NCBI GenBank assembly: GCA_035998445.1
Contig: DASYHQ010000008.1
Location: 124,001-188,000, forward strand
Origin: Tepidisphaeraceae bacterium
GTDB lineage: Bacteria > Planctomycetota > Phycisphaerae > Tepidisphaerales > Tepidisphaeraceae
Length of the DNA: 64,000 bases
Direction: 5' to 3'
This document shows positions 25,272 through 35,878 of the stretch, one piece after another. The notes beneath the pieces were generated by a model. It searched no databases. It was not told where the DNA came from and saw only the letters and a program-made list of their open reading frames with translations. How positions within the stretch are numbered: the first letter of the stretch is position 1; each line of letters begins with the position of its first letter. Made by a program: the position numbers and the translations under genes.

Positions 25272-25321
25272 CGCGCGCGCGTCCCTTGTTCCAAGGGTCG
25301 GCCTTCTGCACAATCGCGTGC

Positions 25322-26986
25322 GTGCCCCAGACCGAACTTTCCCCCACGCATCGCCGGTTCATGCTGGCCACCATACTCGTGCTCGCAGCGCTCATGCGGC
25401 TGGTGGGCAGCGCGCCGCCCGGCGTGCACGTGGACGAGGCATCCAACGCCTGGAACGCGTGGTGCCTTCTGAACCTTGGCACCGACGAGCACTTCCAAAC
25501 GCTTCCCACCTTCTACACCGGCTCGTTCGGCGACAATCGCAGCGCGCTGTACCTCTACTTCCTCATGCCGTTTCAGGCGGTCTTCGGGTTCAGCGCGTAC
25601 ACGACGCGCCTGCCAGCGGTGTTCGGGGGCATCGCGTCGGTCGGGCTGATGTACGTCGTGGGCAAGCGCCTGTTCGACGCGCGGGTGGGCCTGGCCGCGG
25701 CGTTCCTGATGGCGCTGACACCGTGGCAGGTCTTCAGCAGTCGCTGGGGCCACGAGTCCAGCATCGCGCCGCTGCTCGTGCTAAGTTCCGTCGCTGCGCT
25801 GTTGTGGGCCGGCGCGCCGTTCACGGGTCAGGCACGGCCGATGACGCCGATGCGCGGCTTCGTCGCCGGCGCGATCTGCGGCCTGGCCTGTTACGGCTAC
25901 GCCGCGGTGCGGATCGCGCTGCCGGTGCTGCTGATCGCGATCACGCTGGCGACGCTGAAGCACTGGATCGACGCGCTGCGCGACCCGACGCGCCGCTGGG
26001 GCGTCGCCGCGATGGCGCTGGGCGTGCTGGTGACGTTCGCGCCGCTCGTTCATCGTCATCTGACCGATGACGGCATCAACACGCGCGGCAACCTCACGTG
26101 GGTCTGGGACGCGTCCGACCCGACCACCACGCGCATCGCGAAGGTCGTCGACCGCTATCCCGCCCACTTCGGCCCGACGTATTTGTTCCTGGACCGCAAC
26201 GACGATCCGACCCAGTCGATGCCGCCGGGCTTCGGCGTGCTGCACTGGTACGCGCTGCCGTTCCTGCTGGTGGGCGTGGTGGTGCTGGCCCGGCGAACGT
26301 GGTCTTCGCCGGCGGCGCGGGTGGCGGTCGTCGCGCTGCTGGCGTACCCGGCCGGTGACCTGCTCAGCAGCCACGCCGGCCCGAACACGCTGCGCTCGCT
26401 GGCCGGCCTGCCGTGGATGGAATTGACCACCGGCGTCGGCCTTGTGGCGTGCTACGTGCTGCTGCGCGAGCGATGGCGCTGGCCGGCCATCGCCACGATG
26501 GGCGTCGTGGGCATCGCGTTTGGCGGCCTGTTCCTGTGGCAGTTGGACCGCGATTTCCGCACCGACCCGGCCCGCTGGAGCGTCCGCACGATGGACATCG
26601 CCGCTGCGGTCGACTGGCTGCAGCCGCGGCTGCGCGATTGCGATGCGGTCTTCTGGACGCAGAAGGACACGTCGTTCGTCTACGCGCCGATGCTCGTCTA
26701 CCTGCAGGCGTCGCCTCGCATGTGGCTGGACGAACCGGTGGCCCGCTCGCGCAGCGTCGGGGAACGTTTCCAAGCCGCCGACCTCGTGTGGCAGGTGGGC
26801 AAGCACCACTTCATGTTCACGCACGAGTTCGTCGGCCCCGCCGTCGCCGGCCTCGGTCGCGGTCCACGCGTGGCGTACATCGTGCGGCCGGGCGAGCTCG
26901 ATCTGGACAAAGACGTCAAACCCAGCGCCGAGATTCTCGGCCCCGATGGGAAGGTGAGCCTGCAGCTGTTCGACCTGCAGTATTGA
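25322..26986 (+). CDS. ArnT/PMT-like glycosyltransferase family 39 membrane protein
   Basis: A 554-residue multi-pass membrane protein. After the first membrane segment (FMLATILVLAALMRLVG) comes the conserved first loop PPGVHVDEASNAWNAW with the Asp-Glu pair used by GT-C enzymes. Then FGDNRSALYLYFLMPF and RLPAVFGGIASVGLMYVVGK precede about ten hydrophobic segments and a soluble C-terminal domain of about 150 residues outside the membrane. Such enzymes transfer sugars from polyprenyl-phosphate donors to lipids or proteins. The start is uncertain: TTG 25286, GTG 25322 (chosen) and ATG 25361 are all in frame, and none has a clear ribosome site. It follows the oxidoreductase after 50 bases. Confidence 0.85.
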   Translation: MPQTELSPTHRRFMLATILVLAALMRLVGSAPPGVHVDEASNAWNAWCLLNLGTDEHFQTLPTFYTGSFGDNRSALYLYFLMPFQAVFGFSAYTTRLPAVFGGIASVGLMYVVGKRLFDARVGLAAAFLMALTPWQVFSSRWGHESSIAPLLVLSSVAALLWAGAPFTGQARPMTPMRGFVAGAICGLACYGYAAVRIALPVLLIAITLATLKHWIDALRDPTRRWGVAAMALGVLVTFAPLVHRHLTDDGINTRGNLTWVWDASDPTTTRIAKVVDRYPAHFGPTYLFLDRNDDPTQSMPPGFGVLHWYALPFLLVGVVVLARRTWSSPAARVAVVALLAYPAGDLLSSHAGPNTLRSLAGLPWMELTTGVGLVACYVLLRERWRWPAIATMGVVGIAFGGLFLWQLDRDFRTDPARWSVRTMDIAAAVDWLQPRLRDCDAVFWTQKDTSFVYAPMLVYLQASPRMWLDEPVARSRSVGERFQAADLVWQVGKHHFMFTHEFVGPAVAGLGRGPRVAYIVRPGELDLDKDVKPSAEILGPDGKVSLQLFDLQY

Positions 26987-27090: not shown

Positions 27091-27684
27091 CTCTTCTGTA
27101 GGACAGGCATTCCTGCCTGTCTCTCCCCCCGCTCTCCCCCCGTATTCTCTTTGCCTCTCTTCTGTGGCACAGGCATTCTTGCCTGTGTGGCGCTAGCCGC
27201 GATAACGAAGAGGCAGAGACGCGAAGGCGCGAAGGAGGACACGAAGAAAAGTGCAGCGCGTTGCGCGGGTTTCACCGCAACTGCGCAGCGCGTCCGTAGA
27301 GATGGATAGTTGGCTCTTTGACAATTGAATAGGCGATGCCGCGGACAAGGCCATAACCCGTCGTCGTCACCCGATGGTGCACAATGGTGCAAAATGGTGC
27401 ACGAAATCGCGTTCTGCCTTACCCAAACCGCCGCCAGGGTATTGTGTTGCGGTTTCCTTCGCGCTTCCTTCGTGTCTTCGCGCCTTCGCGTCTCTTAAAT
27501 CCTGTCGATGGGAGCGCAACGCAAAGAGAGAGAGAGAGAGAGACAAGAATGTTCGTCCCACCCTATGAAGGGCAAAGGCAGAAGAGACACAGGCAGGAAT
27601 GCATGTGCCACAGAAGACAGAATACGGGGGGAGAGGCAGACGGGGGGAGAGACAAGCAGGAATGCCTGTCCTACAGAAGAACGA
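27091..27684. mobile_element. Family C element (copy C1), 594 bp with ~100-bp terminal inverted repeats
   Basis: The ends are inverted copies of a block containing TGTAGGACAGGCATTCCTGC and TGTGGCACAGGCATTC. The interior 27208-27684 matches the reverse complement of 34565-35041 over its length. Shared landmarks, in order: GCGAAGGCGCGAAG repeats, GTAGAGATGGATAG, a boxA-like GCTCTTTGACAA-TGAATAG (27313-27332), a triple ATGGTGCA repeat (27373-27402), TTACCCAAACCGCCGCCA, and TTCGCGCCTTCGCGTCTCTT. No open frame is conserved between the two copies, so it appears non-coding. It fills the gap between the GT39 and mutS genes. Confidence 0.8.
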
Positions 27685-27692
27685 CGCCACGG

Positions 27693-30344
27693 TCACTTAC
27701 CGTACTTGTCCTTCCACGCGCGCAGGAGTTCGTGGGCCTGCAGGGGAGAGAGCGAATCGAGTTGGGTTCCCGCCAGCGTCGTCAGCAGCTCTTTCGCGGG
27801 GTCGACGAACAGGGTGAGCTGCGAATCGTCCACCTCGCGGTCGGCCTTCTTGCCGCGGCTGATGCGGGGCTTGCCGACGTGCTGGACGGCCAGTTCACCC
27901 AGCAATTGGCGGGCGCGTTCGAGGACGGGCTTCGGGACGCCGGCGAGGCGGGCGACGTGAATGCCGTAGCTGCGGTCGGTGCCGCCTTCGACGATGCGGT
28001 GCAGGAAGATCACCTGATCCTCCCACTCGCGCACGGCCACGTTCAGGTTCTTCACGCCGGTGAAACGGTTGGCCAGGTCGGTCAGCTCGTGATAGTGCGT
28101 CGCGAAAAGCGTGTGGCACTTCACGGTGGCCGCGACGTGCTCGCTGATCGCCCAAGCGAGGCTCAGGCCGTCCAGCGTGCTCGTGCCGCGACCGATTTCG
28201 TCTAAGACGACGAGGCTGCGATCGGTGGCATTGTTGAGGATGTTGGCCGTCTCGGTCATCTCGACCATGAAGGTCGATTGGCCGCCATGCAGTTCGTCGC
28301 TCGCGCCGATGCGGGTGAAGAGGCGATCGCGTAAACCCACTGTTGCGCTCTTGGCCGGCACGTAGCTGCCGACGTGCGCCAGCAGCGTGATGAGCGCAAC
28401 CTGGCGGATGTACGTGCTCTTACCGGCCATGTTCGGCCCGGTGATGAGCGAGAGCGAGTCCCGCTCGCCGAACGTGGTGTCGTTGGCGACGAACTCGCTG
28501 CCGAGTTGTTGTTCCAGCACGGGATGGCGCCCATCGATGATCGACAGCACGCGGTCTTCCGTCACCATCGGTCGGCAGTACTTGCGTTCGGCTGCCAGAG
28601 AAGCGAGCGCGCTTAGCACGTCGATGCGCGCCAAGGCCAGCGCCATCTCTTGGAACGTCGCGACATGAGGCAGGAGCGTTTGCCGGACGTTCTCAAAGAG
28701 TGATTGCTCGAGCGCGATCGCCTTGTCCTGCGCGCCGAGGGCCTCGCTCTCGAAGGACTTTAGCTCGGTCGTGATGTAGCGTTCGCTGTTGGTCGTGGTC
28801 TGCTTGCGGGTCCAATTGGCCGGCGCCTTGTCCTTGTGGACGTTGGTTACCTCGATGTAGTAGCCGAAGACCTTGTTGTACCCCACTTTCAGGTTGGGGA
28901 TGTTCGCCTCGGTCGCCAGTTGCGATTGGTAACGGGCGAGCCATTGCTGGCTGTTGGTGCCGATGTCGCGCAGGCGGTCGAGTTCGGCATCGAACCCGGT
29001 CGCGATGACGCCGCCCTCGCGCAGGTGTGGGGCGGGTTCGGGCTGGATCGCGCTGCGAAGGTAGGCCGCCTGCCCTTCCACGAAGGGTCGCAGTTGGGCC
29101 AGATCCGGCGCGACGGTCTCGGCGGCCCGCAGGGCGGCCAGGCGGTCGATCAGCGCCGGTAGCGATTCGAGGCAACGCCCCAGCGACGCCAGATCGCGCG
29201 GGTTGGCCCGCCCCACCGCGATCCGGCCGACGATGCGCTCGATGTCGCAGACGTCGTCCAATGCCGCGGCGATCTCTTTCAATGCGGTCGGCTCGTCCAA
29301 CAGCGCCGCGATGGCGCTCTGCCGCGCCAGGATGTGTTCCAGATCGCGCAGCGGTGTGCGCAGCCATTGCCGGAGCAACCGGCCACCCATCGTCGTGCGT
29401 GTGCGGTCGATGGCGGATAAGAGCGATCCCTCGGTTCCACCGCTGCGCACGGTGCGGTCGATCTCCAGGCTGCGCCAACTGGCGGGGTCGATCAGCAGAT
29501 GATCTTCAATCGCGTGACGGCGCATCGGGCGGATGTGGGCCAGCGCCGACCGCTGGGTTTCTTCGAGGTACGTTAGCACCGCGCCACAGGCGAGCACGGC
29601 GGCGTCGTCGTCGGTGAAGCCAAAGCCACCAGCGGTCTTGGCCTGCCATTGCCGCTGCAACTGCTCGCGCGCATGGTGCGGCGTGAACTGCCAGCCGGGT
29701 CGGGTGGTTACGGTACCGATGCCCAGCTTGCCGATCGCCGCCCCCACCGCGTGCGGTTGGCCACTGGGCAACTCGGGGATCAGCACCTCCGCGGGCCGCA
29801 GGCGGGCGATCTCGTCGATCACCTGCCCCTCGTTGCCGCTCATGGCGACGCAGGCACCGGTCGACAGTTCGACCCAAACCAACCCGGCCCGGTAACCGTC
29901 GCTCTTGCTGACGCCAAACGCGACGGCGGCCACGAAGTTGTCGTTGCGGCCGTCCAGCAGCGCGTCGTCGGTCAGCGTGCCGGGCGTCATCAGCCGCACG
30001 ACCTCGCGCTTCACCAGACCCTTGGCCAGGGCGGCGTCTTCCATCTGCTCGCAGATCGCCACCTTATGACCGGCGGCGATCATCTTGCGCAGGTAGTTCT
30101 CGACGGCGTGGAACGGGATGCCCGCCATCGGGATCTCGTCCGGCGAACCCTTGTTGCGACTGGTGAGCGCCACGCCCAGCACCTTGGCGGCGGTCTTAGC
30201 GTCCTCCCAGAACATCTCGTAGAAGTCGCCCATGCGAAAAAACAGCACGTAGCCCGGGTGCTGGGCCTTGAACTGCTGATACTGCCGCATGGCTGGCGAC
30301 AGCGCTTTTTCCGGGGCTGGAGTTGGTACGGCGGCGTCGTGCAT
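27693..30344 (-). CDS. mutS: DNA mismatch repair protein MutS
   Basis: A full-length MutS of 883 residues. It recognises mispaired bases and recruits MutL. Mismatch-binding domain I carries the F-x-E motif in FFRMGDFYEMFWEDAK. The connector, lever (SLLSAIDRTRTTMGGRLLRQ) and clamp domains follow. The ATPase has Walker A in TGPNMAGKSTYIRQ, Walker B in SLVVLDEIGRGTSTLDG, and the downstream FATHYHELTDLA. The C-terminal segment after the ATPase ends HELLRAWKDKYGK. The ATG at 30344 is chosen over an upstream in-frame codon at 30407, because the extra residues (HPLFLDRKPRPAYPRS) look non-native. It is transcribed alone and ends at the family C element. Confidence 0.97.
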   Translation of the reverse strand: MHDAAVPTPAPEKALSPAMRQYQQFKAQHPGYVLFFRMGDFYEMFWEDAKTAAKVLGVALTSRNKGSPDEIPMAGIPFHAVENYLRKMIAAGHKVAICEQMEDAALAKGLVKREVVRLMTPGTLTDDALLDGRNDNFVAAVAFGVSKSDGYRAGLVWVELSTGACVAMSGNEGQVIDEIARLRPAEVLIPELPSGQPHAVGAAIGKLGIGTVTTRPGWQFTPHHAREQLQRQWQAKTAGGFGFTDDDAAVLACGAVLTYLEETQRSALAHIRPMRRHAIEDHLLIDPASWRSLEIDRTVRSGGTEGSLLSAIDRTRTTMGGRLLRQWLRTPLRDLEHILARQSAIAALLDEPTALKEIAAALDDVCDIERIVGRIAVGRANPRDLASLGRCLESLPALIDRLAALRAAETVAPDLAQLRPFVEGQAAYLRSAIQPEPAPHLREGGVIATGFDAELDRLRDIGTNSQQWLARYQSQLATEANIPNLKVGYNKVFGYYIEVTNVHKDKAPANWTRKQTTTNSERYITTELKSFESEALGAQDKAIALEQSLFENVRQTLLPHVATFQEMALALARIDVLSALASLAAERKYCRPMVTEDRVLSIIDGRHPVLEQQLGSEFVANDTTFGERDSLSLITGPNMAGKSTYIRQVALITLLAHVGSYVPAKSATVGLRDRLFTRIGASDELHGGQSTFMVEMTETANILNNATDRSLVVLDEIGRGTSTLDGLSLAWAISEHVAATVKCHTLFATHYHELTDLANRFTGVKNLNVAVREWEDQVIFLHRIVEGGTDRSYGIHVARLAGVPKPVLERARQLLGELAVQHVGKPRISRGKKADREVDDSQLTLFVDPAKELLTTLAGTQLDSLSPLQAHELLRAWKDKYGK

Positions 30345-30506
30345 CGGGGGCGAGCGAGGGTACGCCGGGCGTGGTTTGCGATCAAGAAACAGAGGATGAA
30401 CCGCCAAGAACGCCCAGGAAGAAGAGCGAGGATGGAGGAATGAGAAACGAACGTCCGCACTCCGGTTGCCGCTTGCGGCTTAGGAGTGGTTTCAAGACGT
30501 CTCGTT

Positions 30507-33420: not shown

Positions 33421-33540
33421 CCAAGCCCCAATGACCAACAAAGGCTCAATCACCAATGACCAAGAAAGCCACGCCACAGAGATGGTGCCTGGCCTGATTG
33501 GGATTTGGTCATTGGTCATTTGTTGGTCATTGGGGCTTGG
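33421..33540. repeat. Family E palindrome between alpha-E and transglutaminase genes (copy E2)
   Basis: Perfect 19-bp terminal inverted repeats, CCAAGCCCCAATGACCAAC at 33421-33439 and complement at 33522-33540. Inside are extra CCAATGACCAA and TTGGTCATTGG blocks. It begins ten bases after the alpha-E stop and ends 17 bases before the next start. Confidence 0.88.
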
Positions 33541-33557
33541 TCATTGAGTCGTCCAAC

Positions 33558-34550
33558 ATGCTTCTCAAGATCAAACATCAAACCGACCTCCTCTACTCCG
33601 ACCTGATCAGCGAGAGCGTGATGGAGCTGCGCATGGGGCCACGGCAGGAGAACGACCAGCATCGGTTGTCGTTCAGCCTGGCGATCGGGCCGGCGTCGCC
33701 GGCGGCCAGTTACTTCGACTGGCTGGGGAACATCGTGCACGCGTTCACCGTCAACGCGTTCCACGCGAGCATCCGCATCGTCGCCACCAGCGTCGTGGAG
33801 ATCGATCGACCCAAAGCCGAGGTCGAACGCTTCGCCGACCAATGGCCGTTGCCCCCCGGGGCGGCCGGGTACACGTGCTACGACTACCTGCACTTCGGCG
33901 GGCCGATCGTCGACTCGCCGGCGCTAAGGCAACTGGTCGAGATGATCAACCCGAAACCGGGCGCGTCGCTTGGCGAGTTGGCGCTGCGCATGCTGCATTT
34001 GATTGACGAGAAGTTCGTCTACAAGACCGGCGTCACCAACTTCGCCAGCCCGATCACCGACGTGCTCGACAGTGGCGCCGGCGTCTGCCAGGACTTCACG
34101 CACCTGATGATCGGCATGAGCCGTGCCATTGGCGTGCCGGCGCGGTACGTCAGTGGATACGTGCACCCCGACAGCGACAACTTCCGCGGGTTCACGCAGA
34201 CGCACGCCTGGTGCGAACTGTTCTTCCCCTCGGCCGGCTGGGTGGGGTTCGACCCGACGAACAAGTGCGTGGTCGGCCCCAACTTCATCAAGGTCGCCAT
34301 CGGCCGCGACTTCCGCGACGTGCCACCCAACCGCGGCGTCTACCGTGGCAAGGCGAGCGAGTCGATCGACGTGAAGGTGCACACCGAGGTCCTACCCGCC
34401 ATTCCCGGTGAGCTCGCCGCCGAACGCGTGCACTCGTTGCCCGTCCCCACCTACCCCGCCGGCTACAACATCCACCGCGAGATGATCAACCAACAGCAGG
34501 AACAGCAGCAGCAACAAAACAGCGGCGTCCACTTCGCCCGCACGGTCTGA
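33558..34550 (+). CDS. Transglutaminase-like cysteine protease
   Basis: A 330-residue protein. The N-terminal beta-sandwich (about residues 1-150) is the bacterial transglutaminase N domain (KHQTDLLYSDLISESVMELR). The transglutaminase core has the catalytic Cys in DSGAGVCQDFTHLMIGMSR, His in GFTQTHAWCELFF, and Asp in VGFDPTNKCVVG. The tail is Gln-rich (QQQEQQQQQNSG) and disordered. In this three-gene cluster the protein is usually taken to cleave or remodel the peptide made by the ATP-grasp protein. The start at 33558 (MLLKIKHQTD) avoids the repeat translated upstream. No signal peptide is seen. Confidence 0.92.
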   Translation: MLLKIKHQTDLLYSDLISESVMELRMGPRQENDQHRLSFSLAIGPASPAASYFDWLGNIVHAFTVNAFHASIRIVATSVVEIDRPKAEVERFADQWPLPPGAAGYTCYDYLHFGGPIVDSPALRQLVEMINPKPGASLGELALRMLHLIDEKFVYKTGVTNFASPITDVLDSGAGVCQDFTHLMIGMSRAIGVPARYVSGYVHPDSDNFRGFTQTHAWCELFFPSAGWVGFDPTNKCVVGPNFIKVAIGRDFRDVPPNRGVYRGKASESIDVKVHTEVLPAIPGELAAERVHSLPVPTYPAGYNIHREMINQQQEQQQQQNSGVHFARTV

Positions 34551-34564
34551 CCCTCGCGCGTCCC

Positions 34565-35041
34565 CACTCTCTCTTCTGTAGGACAGGCATTCCTGCCTGT
34601 CTCTCCATCCCGTCTGCCTCTCCCCCCCGTATTCTGTGGCACAGTCATTTCTGCCTGTGTCTCTACCTTTTCGTGGGACGGGCATCTTTGTCTGTCGCTC
34701 TTTGCGTTGCGCTTCTATCGACAGAGAGTAAGAGACGCGAAGGCGCGAAGACGCGAAGGCGCGAAGACGCGAAGCAAACGCGAAGGACATCACAACCTGC
34801 TGTCGTGGCGGCGGTTTGGGTAAGCCGAAACGCGAATCCGTGCACCATTGTGCACCATTTTGCACCATCGGGTGAACGGGACAGGGCTGGCGGGTTCTCG
34901 GGCGTCGGCTATTCACTTGTCAAAGAGCACACTATCCATCTCTACGCTCGCGCTGCGCGATTGACGTGCAGCAGGCGCAACACCCACTGATTTCCTTCGC
35001 GTCCTCCTTCGCGTCTTCGCGCCTTCGCGTCTCTGCCTCCC
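34565..35041. mobile_element. Family C element (copy C2), inverted relative to C1
   Basis: About 477 bases whose reverse complement aligns to 27208-27684. It has the boxA-like motif on the minus strand (34909-34931), the triple TGCACCAT repeat (34840-34868), the GCGAAGACGCGAAGGC repeats, and one terminal block TGTAGGACAGGCATTCCTGC (34577 onward). It lacks the second terminal block found left of C1. No conserved reading frame was seen. Confidence 0.78.
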
Positions 35042-35086: not shown

Positions 35087-35878
35087 ATGCGAACCATGGC
35101 GGACGTTTCCCTTCAATCCTTGTGCGAGTTGGGCCAGGCGCAGCTCGTTGAGACGCAGTATTTGACCTCGATCGCCACGTTCGTGCAGGCCGAGCGGATC
35201 GCGTGGGAGTCGGGCGATCTGGAGACGCTGTCGCGGCTGTACTTTCCCCTGCAGGAAGCCCGGCGACAGGCACGGCAGCGATGCGGTGAAGGCATCGTCA
35301 AGCTGGACCTGATCGCCAGCGGCCCGAACGACGCTTCGATCGATGCCGACCGAATCGTCGGCCAATGCCCGCACGGCCAACTGCTGGTGGCGGGTTGGGG
35401 AAGCATTCGACCCGCGATGGACGTGCGCAACCTCGCGATGGCGCGCGGGCTGTACCTCGAGACCTTCCTCGGGGCCGTCTACCCAATCACCGGTGGCGGG
35501 CGTGCGGTGGCGATCGTACCGCTGGACGACGCGAAATTGCCGGAGCCGACCGAGCGGTCGATCGACGCCCTGCTGCCGTTGCTGCCGCCGCACAGCATGG
35601 TGTTGCCAGCGTCGCAGTTGCCCGCCGGCGAGCGTCGCGGCACCACGCAGACGTTCGCCGAGACGATGGCGATGTGGGAACAACTTCACGCGCCGTTCCT
35701 GGCCGCGGCCGACGCGAGCGTGGATCTGCTGCAGCGCATGCAAGGGTATCGAAAGACGCTGCGCGTGGATGGCGGGTGCGAACTGGCGCATCAGCGCCTG
35801 GCGATCACGGCGCGCGAGCTCGATCGGACGCGACGATCGCAACAGGCCTCGCGACACGTCCCGTTCGATGCGGATTAA
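35087..35878 (+). CDS. Hypothetical protein downstream of the ATP-grasp cluster
   Basis: A 263-residue soluble protein of no recognised family. The N-terminal 70 residues look helical (LCELGQAQLVETQYLTSIAT, LEALSRLYFP-like), resembling a TPR-style repeat. A middle alpha/beta part follows (CPHGQLLVAGWGSIRPAMDV, GRAVAIVPLDDAKLPEP). The C-terminal helices end LAITARELDRTRRSQQ. The start could be the ATG at 35087 or the one three codons later. It follows the transglutaminase gene in the same direction, with a family C element between, so a role in the same pathway is possible but not shown. Confidence 0.75.
   Translation: MRTMADVSLQSLCELGQAQLVETQYLTSIATFVQAERIAWESGDLETLSRLYFPLQEARRQARQRCGEGIVKLDLIASGPNDASIDADRIVGQCPHGQLLVAGWGSIRPAMDVRNLAMARGLYLETFLGAVYPITGGGRAVAIVPLDDAKLPEPTERSIDALLPLLPPHSMVLPASQLPAGERRGTTQTFAETMAMWEQLHAPFLAAADASVDLLQRMQGYRKTLRVDGGCELAHQRLAITARELDRTRRSQQASRHVPFDAD

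Follow-up and report, generated by a model that had tools for sequence, protein, structure and literature searches.

Two copies of a composite repeat in the window

Two convergent genes, an ORF at 25286-26986 (+) and a mutS-like ORF at 27693-30407 (−), face each other with their 3′ ends, and the kind of element that occupies the space between them is the question raised by this locus, which belongs to a stretch of 64,000 nucleotides analyzed as a whole (the window). According to a preliminary description, a non-coding sequence found there has a second, inverted copy nearby, carries a boxA-like motif and a triple repeat, and might be a structured RNA element, the remains of a mobile element, or a transcribed locus needing antitermination. 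The inverted relation of both copies was indeed present: positions 27209-27541 are homologous to 34685-35032 in inverse orientation, and the arms of this homology (132, 127, and 75 nt) are 78-85% complementary.

Copy 1 is a whole REP-bounded element of about 590 bp (27091-27684, +). It starts with a left outer REP-A, a GTAG-tagged palindrome TGTAGGACAGGCATTCCTGCCTGTC that also flanks a RAYT gene (27092-27131, +), followed by a left REP-B GTGGCACAGGCATTCTTGCCTGTG (27158-27188, +) and a left arm of the (CGCGAAGG)n type (27209-27245, +), the inverted copy of which forms the right arm (27465-27495, −). Further to the right are REP-D GGTGGGACGAACATTCTTGTCTCTC (27538-27562, −), a second REP-B (27584-27617, −), and the right outer REP-A (27641-27680, −), which is 98% complementary to the left one. 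The terminal inverted repeats previously ascribed to this copy are real (I5, 40 nt, 98%; I10, 34 nt, 91%). Between the arms lies a conserved core of 178 bp (27256-27433, +; R1 match C8:151256-151433), which contains a 5′ stem-loop made of GTTGCGC, a 16-nt loop, and GCGCAGCGC (27260-27291, +), a GTAGAGATGGATAG block (27296-27309, +), an extended boxA GCTCTTTGACAATTGAATAG (27313-27332, +), the motif of which is also present in the host 16S and 23S leaders, three ATGGTGCA units with a period of 10 (27374-27403, +), and a 3′ conserved block CTTACCCAAACCGCCG (27418-27433, +).

Copy 2 (34565-35041, −) is located between tandem genes (33498-34550, +, and 35087-35878, +). Its core of 177 bp (34809-34985, −; R1 match C8:158809-158985) contains the boxA GCTCTTTGACAAGTGAATAG (34909-34928, −), in which the central NN is GT, like in both rRNA leaders, and the same triple ATGGTGCA with period 10 (34839-34868, −). 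The right arm, (CGCGAAGG)n, is at 34722-34774 (−) and its partner at 35006-35039. REPs are present on the 3′ side only, i.e., an outer REP-A at the 3′ end in element orientation (34571-34618, +) and a REP-B (34629-34664, +); since those of the 5′ side are missing, the element is bounded on both sides in copy 1 only. An unrelated inverted repeat of 54 nt (CCAATGACCAA type, 80%) was also noticed between two genes at 33421-33540.

The element is dispersed in the host genome and contains a constrained core

The two copies are not a pair, as had been supposed, for the planctomycete host genome (5.84 Mb, 64 contigs) contains at least 74 dispersed non-coding copies of the element. A DNA search scored 40 copies with an identity of 71-81%, a core-model search gave 44 full-length matches, this being the number that was scored, and a 37-base pattern spanning GTAGAG...boxA had 70 matches, against none in the reversed control. 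Four more diverged copies, beyond the list of 70, were reached via the decamers. These copy numbers, which are derived from searches of the host genome, are lower bounds. An alternative role of the decamer, that of an operator of a neighboring regulator, was rejected, as the four decamer sites fetched outside the 70-copy list turned out to be diverged copies of the element.

Alignment of the copies revealed two layers, namely a core inside, and (CGCGAAGG)-type inverted arms with up to three REP palindromes per side. The order of blocks in the core is GTTGCGC, 16 nt, GCGCAGCGC; GTAGAGATGGATAG; YTCTTTGACAANNGAATAG; a spacer; three ATGGTGCA units; and CTTACCCAAACCGCCG, and its length is nearly constant at 178 bp. 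The loop of the stem measures 16 nt in each of 70 copies and the boxA-decamer spacing 57-61 nt, a single copy excepted; the distance to the right arm is variable (30 to 47). Among 74 copies, the stem has a mean pairwise identity of 97-98%, and the corresponding values of the other blocks are high as well (boxA, 98%; GTAGAG block, 93%; decamers, 92%), whereas the loop reaches 53% and the spacer 41%, with 26% expected by chance. This contrast means that the core is under constraint and that the copies are old enough for their neutral parts to be nearly saturated, while the blocks have been kept. A naked core with neither arms nor REPs was found at one locus (L289), which makes the core a unit of its own. 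At another one (L290, G000:C18 ~413.4 kb), a decayed boxA is separated from intact decamers by the insertion of a different REP palindrome.

A coding role was considered, since in some copies a frame starts with ATGGATAGCGTGCTCTTTGAC, and was rejected. In agreement with the earlier remark on reading frames, none is conserved, because a central NN of CT, TT, or GT gives TGA. We regard the boxA-decamer core as new cargo that bears strong signs of selection, and its putative mode of action is considered below.

The core motif matches the boxA of the host rRNA leaders

Known settings of boxA are rRNA operons, phage operons, and CRISPR arrays. The extended boxA of the core reads TCTTTGACAANNGAATAG, and TCTTTGACAAGTGAATA is present in the leaders of the host 16S and 23S genes (16S, TTCTTTGACAAGTGAATAGTCGG; 23S, ATCTTTGACAAGTGAATACGAGG), so that what had been described as boxA-like matches the host's own rRNA leaders. 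Compared with the boxA/Nus signal of rRNA operons (PMC4807359, PMC10250234), the TCTTTGACAANNGAATA of the element is identical to both host leaders but for NN, with at least 15 matching positions outside it; NN is mostly CC or CT in the element. One 16S and one 23S gene (L031 and L040) were found in the searched assembly, on different contigs. Unlike the rRNA boxA, that of the element resides in a dispersed repeat of more than 70 copies, not before rRNA, and no pairing trailer was found for it. In L031 and L040, bases in the 3′ part of the rRNA boxA (GTGAATAGTCGG, AGTGAATACGAGG) are complementary to the trailer.

In other genomes, L231 has the exact 18-mer in front of a CRISPR array, L232 in front of a 23S gene, and L284 in front of phage genes. 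The array and the phage genes represent long non-rRNA RNAs, whereas neither an array nor an operon follows the boxA of the element. The genome in which the exact extended boxA lies directly upstream of the CRISPR array is a deltaproteobacterial MAG. Taken together, the host rRNA leaders and the occurrence of the same 18-mer before a CRISPR array, 23S, and phage genes make the identification of the motif as boxA well supported, and it would presumably act as such within the element.

The outer layer is a REPIN-like repeat with a RAYT partner

REP-A (TGTAG+GACAGGCATTCCTGCCTGTC) occurs at 186 places of the genome with no more than two mismatches (control, 0), many of them as inverted pairs, and it is found inverted at both ends of 44 out of 75 copies, with a median length of 604 bp. 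An intact RAYT ORF was identified between an inverted pair of the same REP-A about 600 bp apart (L035). Its product matches NF047646 REP_Tyr_transpos (E 2.5e-21; 76.1 bits, slightly below the NCBIfam cut-off of 80) and Pfam Y1_Tnp (34.4 bits, above the cut-off of 23), and it contains the HUH motif MPDHVHML. Whole units were also found duplicated at unrelated loci: L092 and L115 are 95.6% identical, and L092 and L114 88% identical, over about 595 bp, and the homology stops at REP-A. No target-site duplication was detected at the copies (0.80 observed versus 0.84 shuffled).

REP ends common with a RAYT gene, a ~595-bp unit at three loci, and no target-site duplication mean that the outer shell is REPIN/BIME-like and non-autonomous. 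The suspicion that the locus holds remains of a mobile element is supported in substance by the REP termini common with the RAYT gene and the whole-unit duplication. The outer layer, being REPIN-like, belongs to a known kind of repeat: REPINs are inverted REP doublets thought to be spread by RAYTs (PMC3116915), and GTAG-tagged REPs have previously been reported in Planctomycetes (PMC3733652). The element resembles REPINs and BIMEs with RAYTs (PMC3116915, PMC2817692, PMC3733652) in its inverted GTAG-tagged palindromes, extragenic location, high copy number, cognate RAYT bounded by the same REP, absence of target duplication, and long predicted hairpin. However, REPINs are usually ~100 bp long with an unconserved spacer, whereas the boxA element measures ~600 bp, has three nested REP types, and holds boxA and decamers in a constrained cargo of 178 bp; owing to its median length of 604 bp and the conserved core inside, it is REPIN-like rather than a typical REPIN. 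MITEs of DDE transposons share with it a short non-coding form, terminal inverted repeats, and many copies, but this identity was rejected because the element has no target-site duplication; its partner transposase is the HUH RAYT.

Inverted REP-A pairs also surround other nested palindromes (L313-L316), and nested REP cargo is apparently common in the host genome. In L042 (1440-1960; G000:C43 ~7.5-8.1 kb), a GxxExxY/PDDEXK_3 (PF13366) gene is placed inside the same inverted (CGCGAAGG) arms as those around the boxA core, so the arms also exist as a gene-carrying inverted-repeat unit. This gene was rejected as a mobile partner of the whole unit, since it is located between the arms and outside any REP-A pair.

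RNA structure and genomic context

The whole unit folds 15.6 standard deviations below shuffled sequences (z −15.6), which is due to the nested palindromes. The core alone folded no better than shuffles (z −0.45), and this held for either strand. Compensatory changes were looked for among the element copies and no significant covariation emerged; for the second predicted hairpin, there was none among 33 distinct sequences (joint shuffle p 0.31). The first stem is nearly invariant, and its variable pair is either C-G or U-G; this would fit an RNA of the boxA strand, but also a plain C-to-T change. A hairpin predicted by RNAalifold, in which AGAGAU masks boxA, was rejected, as it shows no covariation and is not consistently folded in a related family (G021, see below). 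Rfam gave no match in the window at gathering thresholds and none at the element with E up to 5. With a nearly invariant stem, a core fold at z −0.45, and no covariation, the proposal of a structured RNA element was not demonstrated.

The orientation of neighboring genes was scored with our own simple codon-score gene finder. Convergent genes flank 49 of 71 copies and divergent ones 2, against a window baseline of 9 convergent pairs among 40 neighboring pairs; an earlier run of the gene finder placed 47 of 68 copies between convergent genes. Among tandem neighbors, boxA runs along the genes in 10 cases and against them in 10. A function in read-through RNA predicts an orientation bias, hence this 10:10 ratio counts against such a role. 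Sites between convergent genes are what one expects of REP-type repeats; the distribution of the copies therefore fits tolerance and a DNA-level role alike, and the gene context gives no support for a read-through RNA role. Neither a promoter nor a terminator consensus was recognized in the core. A putative promoter, TTGGCA-N17-TATATA, present in two copies of another family (G008), was rejected, as it is not kept in other G008 copies or in G000. The element may still be a transcribed locus needing antitermination, although no promoter was identified for it and its orientation relative to the neighboring genes is unbiased.

Families of the same architecture in other genera

The core itself is genus-level, with only weak matches among 25 other genomes of the family. 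Further copies in relatives, the absence of which was to count against the idea, do exist in kind: at least two other genera (G021 and G008) have families with this architecture, though with other sequences and other decamers. G021 (JAICTV01, Phycisphaerae bacterium GZL_ISSM_2_bin.34) contains 48 copies of the hairpin TTGCA-TTCGTGATCAC-TGCAA followed by GGGATATAGGGAGAC, about 15 of which add an extended boxA and period-10 triple repeats. These repeats comprise at least three unrelated unit sequences (TGCAACNCCA, TTCAGAAAYC, and AAATGTCCGG), with the period of 10 being kept, and the boxA-decamer distance ranges from 5 to 164 nt. In G008, about ten copies have TATATAGAGAGAC and boxA, and four have TGTCACACTT-type decamers.

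Decamers were present in 18 of 20 G021 copies with a boxA-like motif; nine copies in which boxA is replaced by a Shine-Dalgarno-like block and a start codon had none, this grouping being post hoc. The boxA-less hairpin copies (L294, L297, L299, L301, L303-L305, L310, and L311) contain GGGGAG-N6-10-(A/G)TG in place of boxA, their frames are rich in CKTNPIEANEKPRF or KRTQ repeats, and the AAAACGAACCCAA module downstream is the same as that behind boxA. In E. coli, translation shields RNA from Rho, and boxA with Nus factors can block Rho-dependent termination in a reporter (PMC4807359). Speculatively, translation and boxA might be alternative ways to keep the downstream RNA from Rho in the G021 copies.

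Several other repeats were met in these searches. In JAPLNA01 (LacPavin_0419_WC90_MAG_66_8; L245, L254, L256, L259, L263, and L282), a planctomycete dispersed repeat, of the CGAGGCGATGGAAGG type in most copies read, has the exact extended boxA behind it but no decamers. JABMRB01 has four copies of another boxA-bearing repeat (L260, L262, L275, and L278); its bin label, Nealsonbacteria bin.20, is probably wrong (high G+C). In G011 (L044, L050, L053, L056, L058, and L060), there is a related hairpin GCGCTGCGC...GCGCAGCGC, followed in several copies by GTTGAGATGGA, without boxA; in L050 the gene downstream of it is FtsW-like (named by eye), and in L044 long tandem repeats of ~19 bp stand behind it.

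Discussion

The reading that we favor, and to which we would give even chances, is that of a composite two-layer repeat, in which a REPIN/BIME-like shell, presumably copied by the RAYT, surrounds a constrained boxA-decamer core that would recruit Nus factors when transcribed. The outer layer would consist of nested inverted REP palindromes ending in the GTAG-type REP that also bounds the RAYT gene, and the ~600-bp unit would be copied whole, presumably by the RAYT of L035 acting on single-stranded hairpins, without target duplication. The inner layer would be a constrained non-coding core made of the stem-loop, the GTAGAG block, the rRNA-type extended boxA, the spacer, and the triple decamer. 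It would most likely act as RNA: in a transcribed copy, boxA may bind NusB-S10 and bring the Nus complex onto RNA polymerase, which could then escape Rho-dependent termination in the long untranslated palindromic RNA. Any benefit of this process is likewise conjectural.

The element might instead be a selfish REPIN/BIME-like repeat in which boxA has no cellular role and the core is kept since only copies with an intact core propagate or gene-convert. The REP/RAYT boundaries, the unit duplication, and the lack of orientation bias agree with it, as does the whole unit of L092, common to L114 and L115 at different identities, which is consistent with copying or exchange. However, copies this old should decay evenly unless each is selected, and a nearly saturated spacer (41%) is found beside boxA and stem at 97-98%; moreover, cores free of REPs exist at L289 and in G021, and we find this explanation rather unlikely. 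Somewhat less probable still is a DNA-level element, in which the palindromic stem and three helically phased 10-bp decamers would be binding sites for a nucleoid protein, a topoisomerase, or a direct-repeat-binding regulator, where positive supercoils meet between convergent genes, and the boxA likeness would be secondary. The match of the extended boxA to both rRNA leaders at 15 or more positions outside NN is difficult to reconcile with that, as are the co-occurrence of boxA and decamers in G021 (18/20 versus 0/9, a post hoc grouping) and their distance of 5 to 164 nt in that genome; on the other side are the enrichment between convergent genes (49/71 versus 9/40 window pairs), the neutrality to orientation, and the period of 10 that is kept in G021 while the unit sequence changes.

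We consider it improbable that the copies form a multi-copy family of small-RNA genes, each with its own unrecognized promoter and the core RNA as its product. The core has neither a recognized promoter nor terminator consensus, no covariation, and no Rfam relative at gathering thresholds or with E up to 5, even if its fixed length and constrained blocks, the naked core at L289, and convergent intergenic sites suited to independent transcription units would be expected of such genes. Finally, a relic of a duplicated rRNA operon leader is very improbable: judged by eye only, the 16S leader is similar at boxA and in the bases that directly follow it (GAATAG-TCGGAATGCCGCGAGGA), but neither the sequence upstream of boxA nor the decamers nor the 3′ block show any leader similarity, and the core stem differs from the rRNA processing stem.

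Beyond the host genome, we tentatively propose, at a little less than even chances, a new class of dispersed boxA-decamer RNA elements of Phycisphaerae. It would comprise independent families in several genera, composed of a stem, a purine block, an rRNA-type boxA, and three exchangeable units with a 10-nt period, which occur alone or as REPIN cargo and use or titrate the rRNA antitermination machinery. The triple decamer, with its fixed period and changing sequence, is directly testable. In E. coli, nut RNA at a high level titrates Nus factors (PMC4807359). No part of this 70-copy repeat is better conserved than boxA, and the genome described here yielded one 16S and one 23S gene; more than 70 boxA sites in repeats stand against two in rRNA. 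If the copies are transcribed, the element would either show how mobile non-coding DNA stays transcribed or constitute a large sink for the Nus factors needed by rRNA synthesis.
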